64,000 bases of DNA from NCBI GenBank assembly GCA_947455595.1, contig CANGOP010000007.1, forward strand, positions 62,001 to 126,000, written 5' to 3'. This document shows positions 7,894 through 45,446 of the stretch, piece by piece. This DNA comes from Gammaproteobacteria bacterium (lineage in GTDB: Bacteria > Pseudomonadota > Gammaproteobacteria > Steroidobacterales > Steroidobacteraceae). The translations under genes and the position numbers were made by a program. Position 1 is the first letter of the stretch. Every line of letters begins with the position of its first letter. The notes beneath the pieces were generated by a model, which was given only the letters and a program-made list of their open reading frames with translations, was not told where the DNA came from and did no database searches.

Positions 7894-8210
7894 TGACGAG
7901 TTCAGACCCCGTCCTCAATCGCCTTAAGTGGCGCTGCCGACGGGGTATGCGGGAGTTGGACGTCCTGCTCACGCGGTATCTCGCCGAGCGCTGGCCGACA
8001 GCCTCCCCAGCGGAGCAATCCGCCTTCGAGCATTTTTTGGAATTACCCGATCCTGAGATTTACGACCTGTGCCTACGTCGCGCAGGGTCTCCCACGGCGG
8101 CCTTTGAGCGGCTCGCCGATCTTCTGACGTCATCCTCGGAACTTTCCGCGCAGCAGGTTGTCCATACGACCGAGGATGGCCGTCCGGCGTCCCGGGAGCC
8201 TGAGACTTGA
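7893..8210 (+). CDS. sdhE: FAD assembly factor SdhE (YgfY/CptB)
   Basis: SdhE binds SdhA and promotes covalent attachment of FAD. The 105-residue protein has the diagnostic RGxxE motif (RGMRE, about 17-21) and the small five-helix domain ending in the LELPDPEIYDLCL motif. Its tail after residue 80 is a longer, probably disordered extension. It overlaps sdhB by one base (TGATG) and rpoE by four (TTGA), so it sits between the respiratory genes and the sigma-E genes. A sigma-E-type promoter lies within its 3' third. Confidence 0.92.
   Translation: MTSSDPVLNRLKWRCRRGMRELDVLLTRYLAERWPTASPAEQSAFEHFLELPDPEIYDLCLRRAGSPTAAFERLADLLTSSSELSAQQVVHTTEDGRPASREPET
8138..8166 (+). promoter_or_regulatory. Candidate sigma-E-type promoter for rpoE
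   Basis: GGAACTT (8138-8144), 15 bp, then GTCCATA (8160-8166). The -35 is identical to the E. coli sigma-E consensus; the -10 resembles GTCTAA with substitutions. It lies about 40 bp before the rpoE start, inside sdhE. rpoE genes are commonly autoregulated by such a site. This is inferred from motif and position only. Confidence 0.5.
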
Positions 8211-8806
8211 CCCCAGAACAAAGTGATCTTGCGCTGGTCGAGCGGGTACAACGGGGCGAACGATCGGCGTTCGATGTGTTGGTATTACGGTACCAGCAAA
8301 AGGTCCTGAAGCTCGTCTTGCGTTATATCCGTGATCCCATGGAAGCCGAGGACGTGGCGCAGGAGGCGTTCATCAAAGCTTTCCGGGCGATCGGGTCATT
8401 TCGAGGCGACAGCGCCTTTTATACTTGGATCTATCGGATCGCGATCAATACGGCGAAAAACGCACTCGTGGCGAGCAAACGACGGCCTGTTAGCTTTGGA
8501 ATCGATGTTCAAGATCCCGAGCAAGGTGATCTTGAGGCGCGACTGACCGATGGCGAAACCCCGGAGCAATTGGCCTTAACGGAAGAGATCCGCGAAACGG
8601 TCAATGCGGCAATGGGCGATCTTCCAGAAGAGCTGCGTACCGCGATCGTCTTGCGAGAGATCGACGGCCTGTCGTACGAGGAGATTGCGGCATCGATGGA
8701 TTGCCCAGTCGGTACCGTGCGCTCGCGGATTTTCCGGGCGCGTGAGGCCATTGATCGCCGCTTGCGCCCCATTTTCGCCGGCGGCTTAGGCCGCGAGGAT
8801 GAATGA
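8207..8806 (+). CDS. rpoE: ECF sigma factor sigma-E (RpoE/AlgU)
   Basis: Extracytoplasmic-function sigma factor that directs the envelope-stress regulon. The 199 residues show sigma region 2 (EDVAQEAFIKAFRAIGSFRG, TWIYRIAINTAKN) and region 4 (LPEELRTAIVLREIDGLSYEEI, VGTVRSRIFRAREA), very close to E. coli RpoE and Pseudomonas AlgU. The start is a TTG overlapping the sdhE stop (TTGA); the TPEQSDLALVERVQRG that follows begins where family members begin. rseA and rseB follow. Confidence 0.94.
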   Translation: MTPEQSDLALVERVQRGERSAFDVLVLRYQQKVLKLVLRYIRDPMEAEDVAQEAFIKAFRAIGSFRGDSAFYTWIYRIAINTAKNALVASKRRPVSFGIDVQDPEQGDLEARLTDGETPEQLALTEEIRETVNAAMGDLPEELRTAIVLREIDGLSYEEIAASMDCPVGTVRSRIFRAREAIDRRLRPIFAGGLGREDE

Positions 8807-29399: not shown

Positions 29400-31139
29400 A
29401 TGAGCGTAGCCGAGCAAAACGCGCGGGAAGTGTATGCGCGACTACGGGCCTACATCTGGCCGCATTGGCCCATGTTTCTGCTCGCGATTATCGGTATGGC
29501 GATGTTTGCCTCGGTCGATACCGGTTATGCCTATCTGGTGAAGCACTTTCTCGACGGCGCGTTCGTTGATCGCAATCGCGGCACATTGGTTTTTGTGCCG
29601 GTCGGTATTGTGGTGCTGTTTGCAGTTCGTGGTGTGGGTGAGTATCTCGCTCAGTACGGGTCCGGTTGGGTCGGTCGCCAGATCATCAAGAAACTGCGTG
29701 GCGAGTTGTTCCGCCACTATCTCGATTTGCCGTGTGGTTACTACGATCGGGTCAGTTCCGCCGATCTGCTGTCGAAGCTGACCTACAATACCGAATTGGT
29801 GGCGCAGGCTGCCACGGAGTCCATCACGGTGATCGTCCGCGATACGCTCACCATCCTCGGCTTGCTGTCGTGGTTGTTGTGGCTGAACTGGCGACTGACC
29901 TGCGGTGCTTTGGTGGTCGCGCCGCTGATCGTCGGCTTGCTGCAGATTATCAATAAAGCGTTCCGTCGCTATTCGTCACGCATTCAGAACTCGATGAGTG
30001 ATGTGACACGCGTCGCTAAAGAAGCCATCGATGGTCAGCGTTTGATCAAAGTATTCAATGCGCAGGATTTCGAATCGGCGGCTTTTGAGACCGTGAACGA
30101 GGCGAATCGTTTTCAAAATATGAAGCTGATGCGTGCCCGGGCGTTATCAAATCCGATCGTGCAGTTCATCGCCTCCATCGCGCTCGCGGGTGTGCTGTTT
30201 CTGGCGATCCGACAGGTACTGAACGAGCACTTATCGGTCGGTGATTTCGTCTCGTTTCTCGGTGCCTTGTTGTTGCTGACCGCACCTTTGAAACGATTGG
30301 TGGCGGTCTTTGGTCCGCTGCAGCAAGGTATTGCCGCGGGTCGAAGCATTTTTGAACTCATTGATGAACCTGGTGAGCCAGATACCGGCACTCGGCTATT
30401 GCCGCGCGCAACGGGCCGTGTGACCTTCGAGTCGGTGCGGTTTTCGTATCCCGGCAAAGCGCCGGCCGTGGACGGGGTAAGCTTTGAGGTGGCTCCCGGG
30501 CAGACCGTGGCCATCGTTGGCCGTTCAGGGAGTGGCAAGTCGACGCTCGTGGGGCTCATCGCTCGGTTCTATGATGTGTCGGATGGACGCGTCTGTGTCG
30601 ATGGCGTTGATGTCCGGGATTTTCAGCTCGGTGAATTGCGCCGCAACGTCAGTCTCGTGAGTCAGGACGTGGTCCTTCTGAACGGCTCCATTCGCGACAA
30701 CATTATTTTCAACACCGAAGGCGCAACGACTGATGCCGTTGAGCGAGCCGCGAAGGCGGCGCACGTGTTGGAGTTTGCGGATCAGCTGTCAGCCGGGCTC
30801 GATACGCCGGTCGGCGACCGCGGGGTGCTCCTATCGGGTGGGCAACGGCAGCGTATTGCTATCGCGCGAGCCTTGCTGAAAAACGCACCGATTCTGATTC
30901 TGGATGAGGCCACGAGCGCGCTCGACACGGAGTCGGAGCGCACCATCCAAGAAGCTTTGACGACGTTGATGCGCGATCGGACGACGCTCGTGATCGCGCA
31001 TCGACTCTCGACGATCGAACATGCGAATACCATTGTGGTGATGGAAGAGGGACGATTGGTGGAGACCGGTAGTCACAGCGAATTGCTGGCTCGAGACGGC
31101 ATCTACGCTGCGCTGCACCGGATGCAGTTCAACGCCTGA
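29400..31139 (+). CDS. msbA: Lipid A export ATP-binding/permease protein MsbA
   Basis: Half-transporter that flips core-lipid A across the inner membrane, 579 residues. Six membrane helices occupy residues 20-310. The ATPase has Walker A GRSGSGKST, signature LLSGGQRQRIAIARALL and Walker B ILILDEATSALD. Position directly before lpxK supports MsbA over other ABCB exporters. Confidence 0.93.
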   Translation: MSVAEQNAREVYARLRAYIWPHWPMFLLAIIGMAMFASVDTGYAYLVKHFLDGAFVDRNRGTLVFVPVGIVVLFAVRGVGEYLAQYGSGWVGRQIIKKLRGELFRHYLDLPCGYYDRVSSADLLSKLTYNTELVAQAATESITVIVRDTLTILGLLSWLLWLNWRLTCGALVVAPLIVGLLQIINKAFRRYSSRIQNSMSDVTRVAKEAIDGQRLIKVFNAQDFESAAFETVNEANRFQNMKLMRARALSNPIVQFIASIALAGVLFLAIRQVLNEHLSVGDFVSFLGALLLLTAPLKRLVAVFGPLQQGIAAGRSIFELIDEPGEPDTGTRLLPRATGRVTFESVRFSYPGKAPAVDGVSFEVAPGQTVAIVGRSGSGKSTLVGLIARFYDVSDGRVCVDGVDVRDFQLGELRRNVSLVSQDVVLLNGSIRDNIIFNTEGATTDAVERAAKAAHVLEFADQLSAGLDTPVGDRGVLLSGGQRQRIAIARALLKNAPILILDEATSALDTESERTIQEALTTLMRDRTTLVIAHRLSTIEHANTIVVMEEGRLVETGSHSELLARDGIYAALHRMQFNA

Positions 31140-41332: not shown

Positions 41333-42301
41333 ATGTATTCAAGAATCACCGGCACGGGCAGTTATCTTCCGCCGCGTGTGGTCACCAATACGGATCTCGA
41401 GAAGATCGTCGATACGACCGACGAGTGGATCCGCACGCGCAGTGGCATCGAGCGACGCCACCATGTCGATCCAGGCGAAACGACGTCGACCATGTGCGTC
41501 AAGGCCGCACAACGAGCCATGGAAATGGCCGGTGTGACGGCGGCCGATATCGACTTCATCGTTGTCGGTACCTGTACACCCGATCAGATCTTCCCCAACG
41601 TCGGCACGATGGTGCAAGCGGCACTGGGGATCAGCGACACCCCTGCATTTAGCGTGGAGACAGCTTGCAGTGGCTTTATCTACGCGCTGTCGATTGCGGA
41701 CAAGTACATCCGCTTGGGCGAAGCCAAGTGCGCGCTGGTCATTGGTGCTGACGCACTCAGCAAGATTCTCAACTGGAAAGATCGTGCGACGTGCGTGCTC
41801 TTTGGCGACGGCGCCGGTGCCGTGGTCTTGCAGGCCTCAGAAGAACCTGGCCTGCTGACGACGGTGATTTCGGCCGACGGCAAATACCGTGATCTGCTGC
41901 AGTGCCAATATGGTCCCTCACGCGGCTATGACGCGTTGATCGCCGGTGAAGCCGCTGGCGTGGAGATGAAGGGCGCGGAAGTGTTCAAGGTGGCCGTGAA
42001 TACGCTGTCAGCTCTCGTCGATGTCACGCTCGAGAAGGCCGGCGTCGATCGCGCGGCGGTCGATTGGTTGGTGCCGCATCAGGCCAACCTGCGCATCATC
42101 CAAGCGGCGGCCAAGAAATTAGGCTTGCCCATGGAGCAGGTGGTGGTGACCGTGCAGGATCATGGCAACACCTCCTCGGCATCGATCCCCTTGGCCTTGG
42201 ATCGCGCGGTGCGCGACGGGCGCATACAAAAGGGCCAAACCTTGCTGCTGGAAGCTTTTGGCGGTGGGTTCACTTGGGGCTCTGCGCTCCTACGTTTCTA
42301 G
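41333..42301 (+). CDS. fabH: 3-oxoacyl-[ACP] synthase III
   Basis: Starts fatty acid synthesis by condensing acetyl-CoA with malonyl-ACP. The 322 residues carry Cys112 in ETACSGFIYAL, His in VPHQANLRI and Asn in DHGNTSSASIPLAL, the Cys-His-Asn triad. ATG 41333 gives the standard start YSRITGTGSYLPP; a longer frame from 41204 is rejected. It is not followed by fabD, fabG or acpP: the next gene encodes an L,D-transpeptidase ten bases downstream. Confidence 0.96.
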   Translation: MYSRITGTGSYLPPRVVTNTDLEKIVDTTDEWIRTRSGIERRHHVDPGETTSTMCVKAAQRAMEMAGVTAADIDFIVVGTCTPDQIFPNVGTMVQAALGISDTPAFSVETACSGFIYALSIADKYIRLGEAKCALVIGADALSKILNWKDRATCVLFGDGAGAVVLQASEEPGLLTTVISADGKYRDLLQCQYGPSRGYDALIAGEAAGVEMKGAEVFKVAVNTLSALVDVTLEKAGVDRAAVDWLVPHQANLRIIQAAAKKLGLPMEQVVVTVQDHGNTSSASIPLALDRAVRDGRIQKGQTLLLEAFGGGFTWGSALLRF

Positions 42302-42311
42302 GATCACGCCC

Positions 42312-43256
42312 ATGCGGATGGTGTTGCGGTCGCTGATCTTAGCGCTGCTCGGGTTGACGGGCGCTGCCGTGCAGGCGGCAGTCTTCGCCCTACCGGTCGA
42401 TGGCGATATTGTTGGCGACATGCTCGAGGTGACGGCCACTCACGACGATACCCTGATCGATATGGCGCGCCGGTACGGCCTCGGCTATGAAGAGGTGGTG
42501 AACGCCAATCCCGGTGTCGACCCCTGGTTGCCGGGTGAGGGGACAGTGGTGCGGATGCCGCTCAAGCGCATCCTCCCGGACACACCGCGCGAAGGCATTG
42601 TCGTCAACTTGCCTGAGCATCGACTCTATTACTACCCACCGGTGAAGCCCGGCGAGGCGCGCGTCGTTGTCACCTATCCGGTGAGCGTCGGCAAGATGGA
42701 CTGGTCGACGCCGATTGGACTGACGAAGATCCAAGCCAAGATCAAGGATCCGTCGTGGACGCCCCCAGAGTCCGTGCGGCGCGAGCATGCGGAGCGGGGC
42801 GATATTCTGCCTAAGGTGATTCCGCCAGGACCGGATAATCCGCTCGGTCTTTATGCGATGCGGCTCGCGATTCCCGGTGGCTCTTACATGATCCATGGGA
42901 CGAATCGTCCGGCGGGTGTCGGGATGCAAGTGACGCACGGTTGCATGCGGTTGTATCCAGAACACATCGAAGAGTTGTTCAAAATGGTGGCGGTGGACAC
43001 GCCAGTGCGTCTCGTGAATCAGCCGCAAAAAGTGGGCGTGTCGGATGGCCAGTTGTACGTCGAAGTGCATCCGGCCATGGAGACGACCAGCAGTGCGATC
43101 GTGCGACCGGATCGCACGACGCTGGCGCGTCTGGTGGCCAATACCGCACGCGCGAAACCCAACACGGGTCCGATCATTTGGGAAACGGTCGAGAGCGCGT
43201 TTGGTGAACGCCGTGGCATGCCGGTGAGTGTGGCGCCCACGACCCTTGTGAATTGA
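42312..43256 (+). CDS. L,D-transpeptidase with LysM-like domain (ErfK/YbiS type)
   Basis: Periplasmic transpeptidase, 314 residues. It has a signal peptide (about 1-22), a LysM-like segment (TLIDMARRYGLGYEEVVNANP) and a YkuD domain with the catalytic signature HGTNRPAGVGMQVTHGCMRL, in which Cys is the nucleophile. E. coli homologues ErfK, YbiS and YcfS attach Lpp to peptidoglycan; an Lpp-like protein ending in Lys is encoded 2 kb away. It follows fabH by ten bases and ends at a strong hairpin. Confidence 0.92.
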   Translation: MRMVLRSLILALLGLTGAAVQAAVFALPVDGDIVGDMLEVTATHDDTLIDMARRYGLGYEEVVNANPGVDPWLPGEGTVVRMPLKRILPDTPREGIVVNLPEHRLYYYPPVKPGEARVVVTYPVSVGKMDWSTPIGLTKIQAKIKDPSWTPPESVRREHAERGDILPKVIPPGPDNPLGLYAMRLAIPGGSYMIHGTNRPAGVGMQVTHGCMRLYPEHIEELFKMVAVDTPVRLVNQPQKVGVSDGQLYVEVHPAMETTSSAIVRPDRTTLARLVANTARAKPNTGPIIWETVESAFGERRGMPVSVAPTTLVN

Positions 43257-43294: not shown

Positions 43295-43306
43295 TCGTTC
43301 GATCAG
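43291..43306. repeat. Palindrome overlapping the DUF6249 stop codon
   Basis: CTGATCG-TT-CGATCAG, perfect 7-bp arms, sharing four bases with the right arm of the preceding hairpin. The two structures are mutually exclusive, so this may be an alternative terminator fold. Confidence 0.4.
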
Positions 43307-43725
43307 TGCGTCGATGCGCTCTGATCGTTCGCGCGGCGCGAAATGATGTAGTACAGCAAATTCGCGACGCCGATGGCGGCCGGGATGAGTCCCCACGCCC
43401 AATGCTCTTTGTCTTCCAGATACATCGCGGTCGAGATCGCAGCGCCAACGAGCGTCCAAATCAGGCCGCTGCGTAACGGATCACGTGGCTTGCCCGGCGT
43501 CATGGTGTTGGCAAAGAGTTCGGCCGGCAGTGCAGGCACCTCCAGTCCTTTTTCAATCGCAGCCATCCGCTCGCGATGATGCAATTCGAAGACTTCCTTC
43601 TTCTTCTTGTAATCGAGCCATGAGCGCAGCATGGCCAACGAGAGGCCGAACACAATCGCCACGATGGGGATTGCGATGGCGATGATTCCTTCCGGGTCGG
43701 TCTGGTTCATGTTGATATTCTCCAT
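43303..43725 (-). CDS. DUF6249 membrane protein
   Basis: A 140-residue protein with three hydrophobic segments (about 12-33, 86-101, 109-128) and a charged cytoplasmic stretch HHRERMAAIEKGLEVP between them, the pattern of DUF6249 proteins found beside ECF sigma factors. Function is unknown. ATG 43725 has AGGA ten bases upstream; ATG 43710 is a weaker alternative. A copy of the TGAAACC-N17-GTCTCA motif ends 34 bp before the start, so it is probably controlled by the neighbouring sigma factor. Confidence 0.75.
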   Translation of the reverse strand: MENINMNQTDPEGIIAIAIPIVAIVFGLSLAMLRSWLDYKKKKEVFELHHRERMAAIEKGLEVPALPAELFANTMTPGKPRDPLRSGLIWTLVGAAISTAMYLEDKEHWAWGLIPAAIGVANLLYYIISRRANDQSASTH

Positions 43726-43755
43726 GGTGAAGGTTCCTAGTTGTCTGCTGGGTGA

Positions 43756-43908
43756 TTAATGAGACCCGCGGATGGCGGAGACGGTTTCAAATAAATGAGC
43801 TTTCAATTGGGGTTTCTGTGGGCGCTTTGACCACAGCCAGACGACGATGCCGACCAGCAAAGGCAGGCAAAGGGCGAGCAGGGTATCGATGGTGAGCATG
43901 GTTTTCAT
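43756..43908 (-). CDS. Small membrane protein, 50 residues, unrecognised
   Basis: Reads MKTMLTIDTLLALCLPLLVG then IVVWLWSKRPQKPQLKAHLF and a short tail, ending TAA at 43756. One strong membrane helix (about 7-26) is followed by a basic cytoplasmic tail. I know no named family. Support for it being real: a promoter-like motif ends 31 bp before the ATG, and it faces the sigma operon. Against: the ribosome site is weak and its last codons double as the promoter of the next gene. Confidence 0.55.
   Translation of the reverse strand: MKTMLTIDTLLALCLPLLVGIVVWLWSKRPQKPQLKAHLFETVSAIRGSH
43760..43789 (-). promoter_or_regulatory. ECF-type promoter P3, upstream of the DUF6249 gene
   Basis: On the minus strand TGAAACC (43789-43783), 17 bp, GTCTCA (43765-43760). 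It is embedded in the last codons of the 50-residue ORF and ends 34 bp before ATG 43725. Its spacer closely resembles that of P2 (shared GCC, TCC and terminal GG). Confidence 0.65.
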
Positions 43909-43939
43909 GATCGGGTACGCTCAGTAATGGCGACCAACA

Positions 43940-43969
43940 TGAGACCCTTGGACGGCCAGAGTGGTTTCA
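43940..43969 (-). promoter_or_regulatory. ECF-type promoter P2, upstream of the 50-residue ORF
   Basis: On the minus strand TGAAACC (43969-43963), 17 bp, GTCTCA (43945-43940), ending 31 bp before ATG 43908. Its -35 is one arm of an inverted repeat whose other arm is the -35 of P1. Confidence 0.65.
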
Positions 43970-43978
43970 GTATTTTTT

Positions 43979-44008
43979 TGAAACCGTCGGCGCGATGACC
44001 GGGTCTTA
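43979..44008 (+). promoter_or_regulatory. ECF-type promoter P1, upstream of the sigma factor gene
   Basis: TGAAACC (43979-43985), 17 bp, GTCTTA (44003-44008), ending 36 bp before ATG 44045. The AAC core in the -35 and GTC in the -10 are typical of ECF promoters. With P2 it forms a back-to-back pair nine bases apart, and the matching motif before the opposite-strand genes suggests one sigma factor reads all three. Confidence 0.65.
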
Positions 44009-44044
44009 CAGCAGAGTGCAGAGGATAGGCTAGGTTGTGAACGG

Positions 44045-44614
44045 ATGACGGCGCAGACCCAAGCGATCGATGAGACGATTTTGGCGCTGCGCGAGCAGGG
44101 TCGAATGGAGGACGCGTTGGCGCGCCTCTTGGATCATTACGAAGCGCGCGTCTATCGGATGTGCCGAGCTTTTTTGCGGGATGAGACGTGGGCGGAGGAT
44201 GTCGCACAGCAGTCTCTGATTCGGATCTGGAAGGGTTTGCCGGGTTTTGATGGCCGTGCTGCGCTGTCGACCTGGATTTACTCGATCACGCGCAACCGCT
44301 GCAACACGGCCTTGAGTGGTCGCCGTGGCGACGAGCTCGGTGATGAGGTGCTGGTCCAATTGGCTGATGAGAACGCCGTCGACCCGAGCGGCGCCGATGC
44401 TACCTCGGTGATTGAACAATTGGTGTCTGCATTGCCGGACAAGTATCGAGTGCCCATTACGCTGTATTACTTTGAGGACGAGTCGGTGACCGAAGTCGCA
44501 GAGCGTCTCGGTTGCCCGGTCGGCACCGTCAAGACGAACCTGTCGCGTGCTCGCGCGGAACTGCGCGCGCGCTTGGACGCGATGGGATTAGGAGATTGGA
44601 CGCTATGGAATTGA
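44045..44614 (+). CDS. ECF-family RNA polymerase sigma factor
   Basis: A 189-residue sigma-70-family protein with only regions 2 and 4. Region 2 is seen in VYRMCRAFLRDETWAEDVAQQ and STWIYSITRNRCNTAL; region 4 in ALPDKYRVPITLYYFEDESV and CPVGTVKTNLSRARAELRARL. It is clearly different from the RpoE encoded at 8207. The next gene overlaps its end and encodes a small two-helix membrane protein, the usual place for an anti-sigma factor. The trigger signal is unknown. Confidence 0.9.
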   Translation: MTAQTQAIDETILALREQGRMEDALARLLDHYEARVYRMCRAFLRDETWAEDVAQQSLIRIWKGLPGFDGRAALSTWIYSITRNRCNTALSGRRGDELGDEVLVQLADENAVDPSGADATSVIEQLVSALPDKYRVPITLYYFEDESVTEVAERLGCPVGTVKTNLSRARAELRARLDAMGLGDWTLWN

Positions 44615-45009
44615 AGAACACAGATCTCAGCGACGCCGCGCTGGAGGCTCACTTGCGTCGTTCACTGGCGTCGCCGGCGCTGCCCAATGAATTTCGGTCG
44701 CGGCTCTTGACGCGGATGGTCAGCGAGCCGGTGGATGCACAAGCGCGGGCCGCGCTGGAGCAGGAATGGCGCCGGACTCAAGAACGGTTACTGGCCGAGT
44801 CCATTCAACTGCGACGGCAGACGTTGTTGTGGTTGTTGGGCGGCGCCTTTGCCGCGGGCGCTATCACGATGGCCGCCATGCCGTGGGTGACGGCACACTT
44901 TGGGGCGCGTTGGTCGGTTTGGGTGCCGGTGGCGGTGGCCGCGCTGGGCTTGGTGGCCAGTTGGGTCGGCGACCCGCGCGTGCGCCGAGCGCTCGCATCG
45001 ATCGGCTGA
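44605..45009 (+). CDS. Probable membrane anti-sigma factor partner
   Basis: A 134-residue protein with a cytoplasmic, charged, helical N-terminal part (1-70) and two membrane helices (about 73-95 and 103-121). It overlaps the sigma gene by ten bases, which implies coupled expression. No zinc anti-sigma motif (HxxxCxxC) or named domain is visible, so the anti-sigma call is from context and topology. ATG 44605 is chosen; the frame upstream lies inside the sigma gene. Confidence 0.6.
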   Translation: MELKNTDLSDAALEAHLRRSLASPALPNEFRSRLLTRMVSEPVDAQARAALEQEWRRTQERLLAESIQLRRQTLLWLLGGAFAAGAITMAAMPWVTAHFGARWSVWVPVAVAALGLVASWVGDPRVRRALASIG

Positions 45010-45017
45010 TCGAAGTC

Positions 45018-45052
45018 GAAAAAAAACCCCGGGACCAGGGGTCTCGGGGTTT
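45018..45052 (-). terminator. Terminator of the Lpp-like gene
   Basis: AAACCCCG (45024-45031) pairs with CGGGGTTT (45045-45052); read on the minus strand the stem is followed by a run of T (complement of the A-run at 45019-45026). It lies about 60 bp after the lipoprotein stop and just after the convergent anti-sigma gene. Confidence 0.8.
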
Positions 45053-45113: not shown

Positions 45114-45446
45114 TTACTTCTGGACCGACTTCTTGAACATGCGATCGATCTTCTCGTTCGTCGCGTCGCAGCACTCCTTGTTCGCCTGCGCAGCGGCCAT
45201 GGCGGCGTCCGCACGGCTCTGAGCAGCCTGGGCAGCCGTCGAGGCAGCCTGGGCAGCGCGAGCGGCGCTGTCAGCAGCAGCCTTGGCAGCGTCAGCCGAA
45301 GCCTGAGCCTTCGAAGCACCGGCCGAAGCGGCCGAAACCTGGGTCTTCAGGTCGTCGATCTGGGCCTGCAACGGCTTGAGGTCCGTGCAACCGGCGGCGA
45401 AAACAACACAGAGGGCGGCGGCGCCAACCTTGATGAACTTGTTCAT
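45114..45446 (-). CDS. Lpp/OprI-like alanine-zipper lipoprotein
   Basis: A 110-residue lipoprotein: MNKFIKVGAAALCVVFAAGC is the signal peptide with lipobox FAAGC (Cys20). It is followed by a long Ala-rich coiled coil (about 30-90) and KIDRMFKKSVQK. The C-terminal Lys is the residue that L,D-transpeptidases attach to peptidoglycan in Lpp. Two adjacent Cys near the C-terminus (NKECCDATNEK) are unlike E. coli Lpp. GAGGAG precedes ATG 45446; the longer frame to 45554 is rejected because it would bury the lipobox. Confidence 0.82.
   Translation of the reverse strand: MNKFIKVGAAALCVVFAAGCTDLKPLQAQIDDLKTQVSAASAGASKAQASADAAKAAADSAARAAQAASTAAQAAQSRADAAMAAAQANKECCDATNEKIDRMFKKSVQK

Follow-up and report, generated by a model that had tools for sequence, protein, structure and literature searches.

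A probably autoregulated extracytoplasmic function sigma factor cassette and its DUF6249 neighbour in a Steroidobacteraceae genome

The stretch of DNA considered here (the window) comprises 64,000 nucleotides (nt) from a Gammaproteobacteria bacterium of the family Steroidobacteraceae (GenBank assembly GCA_947455595.1, contig CANGOP010000007.1, positions 62,001 to 126,000) and carries at 43303-45009 a compact cassette of four open reading frames (ORFs) that includes an extracytoplasmic function (ECF) sigma factor gene. The sigma factor gene (44045-44614, plus strand) encodes a protein of 189 amino acids (aa) with matches above the Pfam cut-offs to Sigma70_r2 (residues 28-93) and Sigma70_r4_2 (residues 123-173) and with a SigW-like -35 recognition helix, GTVKT, which contains Thr164. 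ECF (group IV sigma-70) factors are defined in a passage of one article as having sigma regions 2 and 4 only, joined by a short linker (PMC8103513), and the window protein fits this two-domain definition. Overlapping the end of the sigma gene is the start of a second plus-strand gene (44605-45009) for a 134-aa protein, probably an anti-sigma protein, with two membrane spans predicted by hydropathy. The minus strand carries an ORF for a 50-aa single-span membrane microprotein (43756-43908) and the gene for a 140-aa DUF6249 membrane protein (43303-43725), the latter matching PF19762 with an E value of 3.6e-13 and 49.8 bits against a gathering score of 33.

As the first-pass annotation had described, three exact copies of TGAAACC-N17-GTCTYA accompany these genes, all with a 17-base pair (bp) spacer and GG ahead of GTCT. 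The copy on the plus strand (43979-44008, GTCTTA) ends 36 nt before the start codon of the sigma gene, placing an AAC-type -35 and a GT-type -10 ahead of the sigma/anti-sigma operon, and is kept in the related loci L008 and L009 and, in variant form, in more distant relatives where the same design recurs. Back to back with it, the -35 elements being 9 bp apart, is a minus-strand copy (43969-43940, GTCTCA) that ends 31 nt before the 50-aa ORF and serves this ORF and probably DUF6249 as well; it is kept in L009 and reads CGAAACC in L025 (the same locus as L008). The third copy (minus strand, 43789-43760, GTCTCA) lies within the 3' end of the 50-aa ORF, ends 34 nt before the DUF6249 start codon and is kept in L008 and L009. 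The two minus-strand spacers had also been called alike, which they are not especially, with 8 of 17 positions identical; the spacer of the 43789 copy is nearer to that of the plus-strand copy (11 of 17, random mean 4.5). From the base composition of the window, exact matches are expected at 0.08 per genome and 6e-6 per 250 bp. A scan of the region for sigma-70-type promoters was uninformative (0 seen against 0.4 expected).

The three copies are the sole exact matches in the 3.04 Mb genome of the window (G000; 3,038,052 bases on 60 contigs, 87.7% complete), the motif not being frequent genome-wide. Three further sites match with one mismatch against four for a reversed control pattern, which is background level. 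One lies inside a 300-aa LysR-like frame (L006) and one, at window position 30086, inside a 579-aa ABC-transporter-like frame (both labels assigned by reading the translations), while the third (L004) is directed antisense into the end of the adjoining gene. The looser form TGAAAC-N17-GGTMTNA adds one site against two for the control, at the end of an unrelated gene on contig C11 and antisense to it. Given their positions inside frames or in antisense and their control-level counts, these sites were judged accidental and rejected as targets.

The same confinement is seen in relatives. In 15 genomes of the same genus, 18 of 19 matches to TGAAACC-N17-GTMTYA fall at the sigma/DUF6249 locus (control 2), the lone off-locus match being in G002, where no DUF6249 was found; G006 and G008 have DUF6249 and no match to this pattern. 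Across 217 genomes of the family, TGAAACC-N17-GTATCAA gives 59 matches over 41 genomes (control 1), 55 of them no more than 311 bp from a DUF6249 match and three of the remaining four also at sigma/DUF6249 loci. With 58 of 59 matches at such loci the regulon therefore looks like one locus at exact-match stringency, and in this sense the earlier description of the regulon as self-contained is supported; some targets with weaker matches may lie elsewhere, and another sigma factor may also read these promoters. The sole exact match of this type in the family outside sigma/DUF6249 loci (L169, 1524-1553) is perhaps an extra target in one species; about 60 bp beyond it is a possible start codon of an ORF whose product would begin like a signal peptide and continue as a repetitive sequence.

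Conservation of the motif was examined first at orthologous loci, where three copies are present in L009/L026 and two exact copies with one CGAAACC in L008/L025; a third exact copy was noticed only in the window locus, L008 and L009. More distant relatives share the same divergent promoter design, mostly with a GTATCA -10. A scan with the DUF6249 protein, blind to gene neighbours, gave 48 loci, and genome searches added more, such that 159 loci were processed (L007-L165, copies included). A DUF6249 match by a purpose-built model is present in 155, and 151 of these also have an ECF sigma match on the fetched stretch, in divergent (118) or codirectional (33) orientation; the four with no sigma match are L068 and three loci cut by contig ends (L072, L143, L158). 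DUF6249 itself is patchy, being found in 89 of 217 genomes of the family of the window and in 7 of 274 drawn from its class. Dropping copies and sigma factors at least 85% identical left a non-redundant set of 67 divergent loci, which includes Gammaproteobacteria as well as records that bear Verrucomicrobia or Acidobacteria in their titles.

Promoters in this set were called as TGMAAC/GT-type elements scored out of 12, with A or C taken freely at the third -35 base and back-to-back pairs counted as non-overlapping. At threshold 9 a pair is present in 65 of the 67 loci, against a mean of 9.5 and a maximum of 15 in shuffles; threshold 10 leaves 64 loci (shuffle mean 0.27, maximum 2) and threshold 11 leaves 56 (shuffle mean 0). 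Of a later-fetched subset of 22 loci, 21 have a pair at threshold 9. The spacer is 17 nt in 59 of 65 promoters on the DUF6249 side and in 60 of 65 on the sigma side; in L060 and L071 it is 18 nt on both. The clade of the window has GTCTYA as its -10, but across the set the third -10 base is most often A (GTATCA, for example).

The 30-bp elements might instead be operators of a dimeric regulator, given that TGAAACC...GGTCTCA is a near inverted repeat, that the divergent -35 elements form another, that each copy fits the pattern on the opposite strand with two to three mismatches and that the window and seven further loci have precisely 9 bp separating the divergent -35 elements. Over the set, however, this gap ranges from 0 to 192 bp (the misplaced L054 excluded), and a fixed 9-bp gap was rejected as an operator signature. 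The symmetry is not kept in relatives, where TGMAAC persists on the -35 side but the -10 side reads GTATCA, GTCCAA or ATATAA. With start codons sitting where transcription from the -10 should begin, and with promoter variation tracking a DNA-contact residue of the sigma factor (see below), operators are very unlikely.

The promoters are connected with the adjacent sigma factor by coupled variation. At the third -35 base the two promoters of a pair are A/A in 49 loci, C/C in 15 and A/C in one, an agreement of 64 out of 65 (Fisher 8e-14, relatedness ignored). Among the sigma columns tested, mutual information with this base peaks at residue 164, which lies in the recognition helix. This residue is Thr in 44 of the 46 A-type rows with a residue there, the exceptions being L033, which has Val, and L050, which appears to be frameshifted. 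All 14 C-type rows have Ala, Ser or Asn instead, and none has Thr. Thr164 aligns with the Ser of the sigma-E helix GTVRS. A contact between this residue and this base has a precedent in the Mycobacterium tuberculosis SigH open complex, for which an excerpt of the structural report describes S182 contacting base -33 and R186 base -34 (PMC6411747). Thr164 equates to S182 by arithmetic on the reported SigH stretch, a two-residue tag being assumed, and setting GAAAC under GGAAC puts the third -35 base at -33, the base that S182 contacts according to that excerpt. Comparison across loci, in which both promoters of a pair co-vary with residue 164, gives good support to the earlier proposal that all three promoters are read by the adjacent sigma factor.

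The same rule can be followed in 31 distinct codirectional loci, whose upstream scores were obtained without a shuffle control. Seven score at least 11 and all agree with the residue 164 rule, L052, L053, L055 and L129 combining C with Ser and L058, L061 and L062 combining A with Thr, several of the seven being close kin. On the tree, independent pairs number two on well-supported branches and five on the best tree, too few for the coupled variation to reach significance by a sign test; for the two on well-supported branches, all 200 pairings had the promoters changing in step, and promoter and residue did so in 1.9 of 2 on average.

Conservation by common descent of the intergenic region, with no functional coupling, would be compatible with all loci stemming from one sigma/DUF6249 arrangement and with the small number of independent changes. 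It sits badly with a spacer that is nearly unconserved, most of its columns being below 0.5 bit against 1.4-2 for most -35 columns and for three -10 columns (G, T and the final A), although the caller selects for those bases and so produces some of this contrast itself. It also gives no account of why both promoters of a locus switch together and why residue 164 follows them best of all columns, and is the least probable of the explanations weighed here.

No sigma residue is put forward as deciding between GTCT and GTAT, the best columns (184, 49 and 185) looking like lineage signal. A separate association was seen at residue 91 with the base immediately ahead of the -10. In both promoters this base is C where residue 91 is Arg (26 of 26 C-type rows that have a residue there) and is mostly G or A where it is another residue, although a higher score falls to residue 184, close to the C-terminus. 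Residue 91 is a possible second coupled contact on this comparison. In a further group of codirectional loci (L114, L118, L147 and L161 among them) DUF6249 lies upstream of sigma on one strand, an arrangement that mostly has a GTVKS helix and no strong upstream motif of TGMAAC/GT form.

The promoters could be real and yet owe some or all of their transcription to a different sigma factor encoded in the genome. G000 has six Sigma70_r2 matches, of which three besides the cassette sigma factor are ECF-sized, namely an RpoE-like factor (window 8207-8806), one on contig C12 and one on C3. The C3 factor (L188, 177-836, minus strand) has the helix GSVKTHYFRA with Thr at the place of Thr164, and the helix alone therefore does not single out the adjacent sigma factor. 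The others fit less well. The RpoE-like helix, GTVRSRIFRARE, is identical to that of Escherichia coli sigma-E (GTVRS type), whose -35 consensus GGAACTT is unlike TGAAACC, the C12 helix is GTSKAQ, and the other two Sigma70_r2 matches, in frames of 637 and 306 residues, have the lengths that RpoD and RpoH would have. Moreover, four same-genus genomes without detected DUF6249 have one exact match in total, and promoter variation over the loci tracks the adjacent sigma factor, such that a different reader is unlikely.

Like the Thr-bearing helix of the C3 factor, a number of observations weigh against a single autoregulated cassette read by its own sigma factor. Two of the 67 divergent loci, L070 and L130, have no promoter pair (in L070 only 3 bases separate the starts of the sigma and DUF6249 matches), and in L054, although it was counted as having a pair, the sigma match is 2.5 kb distant. 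L013 and L019 mix GTCT and GTAT -10 forms within one locus, so that one sigma factor may accept both. Among codirectional loci, 19 of 31 have no upstream match scoring at least 10, and of the five that score 10-10.5, L138 breaks the residue 164 rule. The switches themselves are few, with 5-6 changes on the tree, the G000 assembly is incomplete to the extent given above, and the recurrence of a membrane-span ORF after the sigma gene (see below) comes from a span-seeking picker run without a control, a first picker having given 49 of 61 with 12 misses that were mostly wrong-frame picks.

Among solved structures the sigma factor is closest in sequence to Bacillus subtilis SigW, its best match in the PDB, with which it has the GTVKT helix in common. 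SigW promoters have TGAAAC at -35 and CGTA at -10, and a membrane-bound anti-sigma factor, RsiW, is encoded alongside. SigW also controls a large regulon, in contrast to the window system with its exact motif copies confined to the cassette. The protein falls below the cut-offs of the NCBIfam SigW models NF007223 and TIGR02948 (99.8 against 209 bits and 90.3 against 243.1 bits, respectively).

The 134-aa protein resembles class I anti-sigma factors (ASDI, zf-HC2/ZAS) in its position, its gene overlap with sigma and its membrane spans, but it differs from them in having no zinc signature Hx3Cx2C, which places it outside zf-HC2, and no Pfam family, anti-sigma families included, matches it above cut-off. 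An ORF with a membrane span begins at the sigma stop in 57 of 58 testable loci (none in L119; nine more are truncated or broken), a figure obtained with an ORF picker that selects for such a span and was run without a control, and in 40 of the 57 the overlap with sigma is 4 bases. Hx3Cx2C is present in 17 of the 57 proteins at this position; when five were tested against zf-HC2 in Pfam, L034, L035 and L075 scored above the cut-off and L014 and L060 below it. By eye, the window protein and its kin seem to share the post-zinc segment LDxxLxxALxxPxLPxxFxxRL. Zinc and non-zinc anti-sigma members are mixed within groups, according to a section of an earlier survey (PMC7406223), and the 134-aa protein is likely to be a zinc-free class I anti-sigma factor. 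The membrane partner of the first-pass annotation can accordingly be given a sharper description, as a co-operonic and, from its position, its spans and the anti-sigma signatures of its relatives, probably anti-sigma protein.

L008 and L009 encode peptides similar to the 50-aa microprotein at the corresponding position, and a further 14 loci have short ORFs there, most of them hydrophobic. Eighteen loci have at least 140 nt between promoter and DUF6249 match, and in 14 of these the start codon of an ORF of 40-51 codons lies 6 nt (12 loci) or 5 nt (two loci) past the -10 hexamer; every remaining offset as far as 59 has 2 at most. Start codons at this distance fit leaderless messages and mark the expected start point of transcription, which suggests that the long-gap loci encode a leaderless microprotein. 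The best 17-residue hydropathy of these ORFs is at least 1.6 in 11 of 14 and 1.39-1.58 in the other three. In the clade of the window (L007, L009) the ORF starts 31-33 nt after the -10 instead. Since the third promoter lies inside the 3' end of the 50-aa ORF, the promoter sequence sets the last residues of the peptide. Codon-position and dN/dS tests gave no informative signal on whether the 50-aa ORF is coding.

DUF6249 is conserved at an IPI in the first span, at HxERMAAIEKG following it and at glycines in the later spans. An AlphaFold2 model has three long helices with modest overall confidence (pLDDT 81, pTM 0.48), and a structure search against the PDB gave nothing significant (best E 2.2). 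The open-access literature searched offers no function for DUF6249, the lone paper naming it being concerned with a plant kinase family. In L065 a tandem pair of DUF6249 copies lies beside a single sigma factor. The near-constant pairing with sigma suggests that DUF6249 has a part in the regulatory loop itself, an ordinary effector being equally possible, and the most likely guess is that DUF6249 and the microprotein act as a membrane effector or feedback partner of an envelope-sensing loop.

The cassette is flanked by a YkuD L,D-transpeptidase gene (window 42162-43256) and a gene for an alanine-zipper major outer-membrane lipoprotein (45117-45446). In the window genome, G009 and G014 it fills 1.86-1.88 kb between these two genes, which in G002, G011 and G013 are 129-214 bp apart; DUF6249 is on another contig in G011 and was not found in G002 and G013. 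Six other genomes have 1.2-8.5 kb between the YkuD and lipoprotein genes, with DUF6249, where found, on another contig, and in three genomes the YkuD/lipoprotein pair is split over contigs. Within about 1.5 kb of the lipoprotein gene, a related sigma factor or DUF6249 was found in the three cassette-bearing genomes and in none of the others. Compared with G009 and G014, identity is 59-71% for the three larger cassette proteins and 88-95% for the flanking genes. Most simply, the cassette would have changed place as a unit. A terminator-like hairpin 3' of the cassette, in minus-strand sense (45027-45040), comes from a consensus scan only, whose matches are near chance (4 against 2.2 in shuffles).

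Taken together, the locus is very probably a compact autoregulated ECF cassette in which the sigma factor transcribes from all three promoters and is held by an anti-sigma factor. It is likely to be a SigW-like autoregulated sigma/anti-sigma pair with the microprotein and DUF6249 as outputs. The sigma factor would be held by the membrane-anchored anti-sigma factor encoded with it until released by a signal, probably from the cell envelope. Once released, its region 4 helix, with Thr164, would bind TGAAACC and its region 2 the GTMT-type -10, such that it would transcribe its own operon (sigma and anti-sigma) and, from two tandem promoters on the opposite strand, the genes for the membrane microprotein and DUF6249. 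A broader proposal, put forward tentatively and with rather less than an even chance of being right, is that of a relocatable one-locus regulon, in which the entire output of the sigma factor is its own operon plus a leaderless or short-leader microprotein and DUF6249 as a membrane sensing or feedback arm, the closed loop moving as a unit. A system of this general kind, with an autoregulated ECF sigma factor, an anti-sigma factor and an adjacent target, is already known, and a named ECF group may already cover the cassette. The link with DUF6249 seems to be new, as do a regulon of one locus, a leaderless microprotein and the coupled switch of the promoters, and no description of the cassette was found among titles or abstract starts in the open-access literature searched.

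The cassette looks like an ECF factor whose target list is its own locus. The coupling of one sigma residue to one base in both promoters amounts to a natural experiment on ECF promoter specificity, and the leaderless start codons would allow an ECF transcription start site to be read from sequence. For DUF6249, pairing with an ECF sigma factor and a shared promoter code make it a testable member of a membrane-signalling loop, and the recurrence of the cassette design in related and distant bacteria provides a first lead on an unstudied family of membrane proteins.

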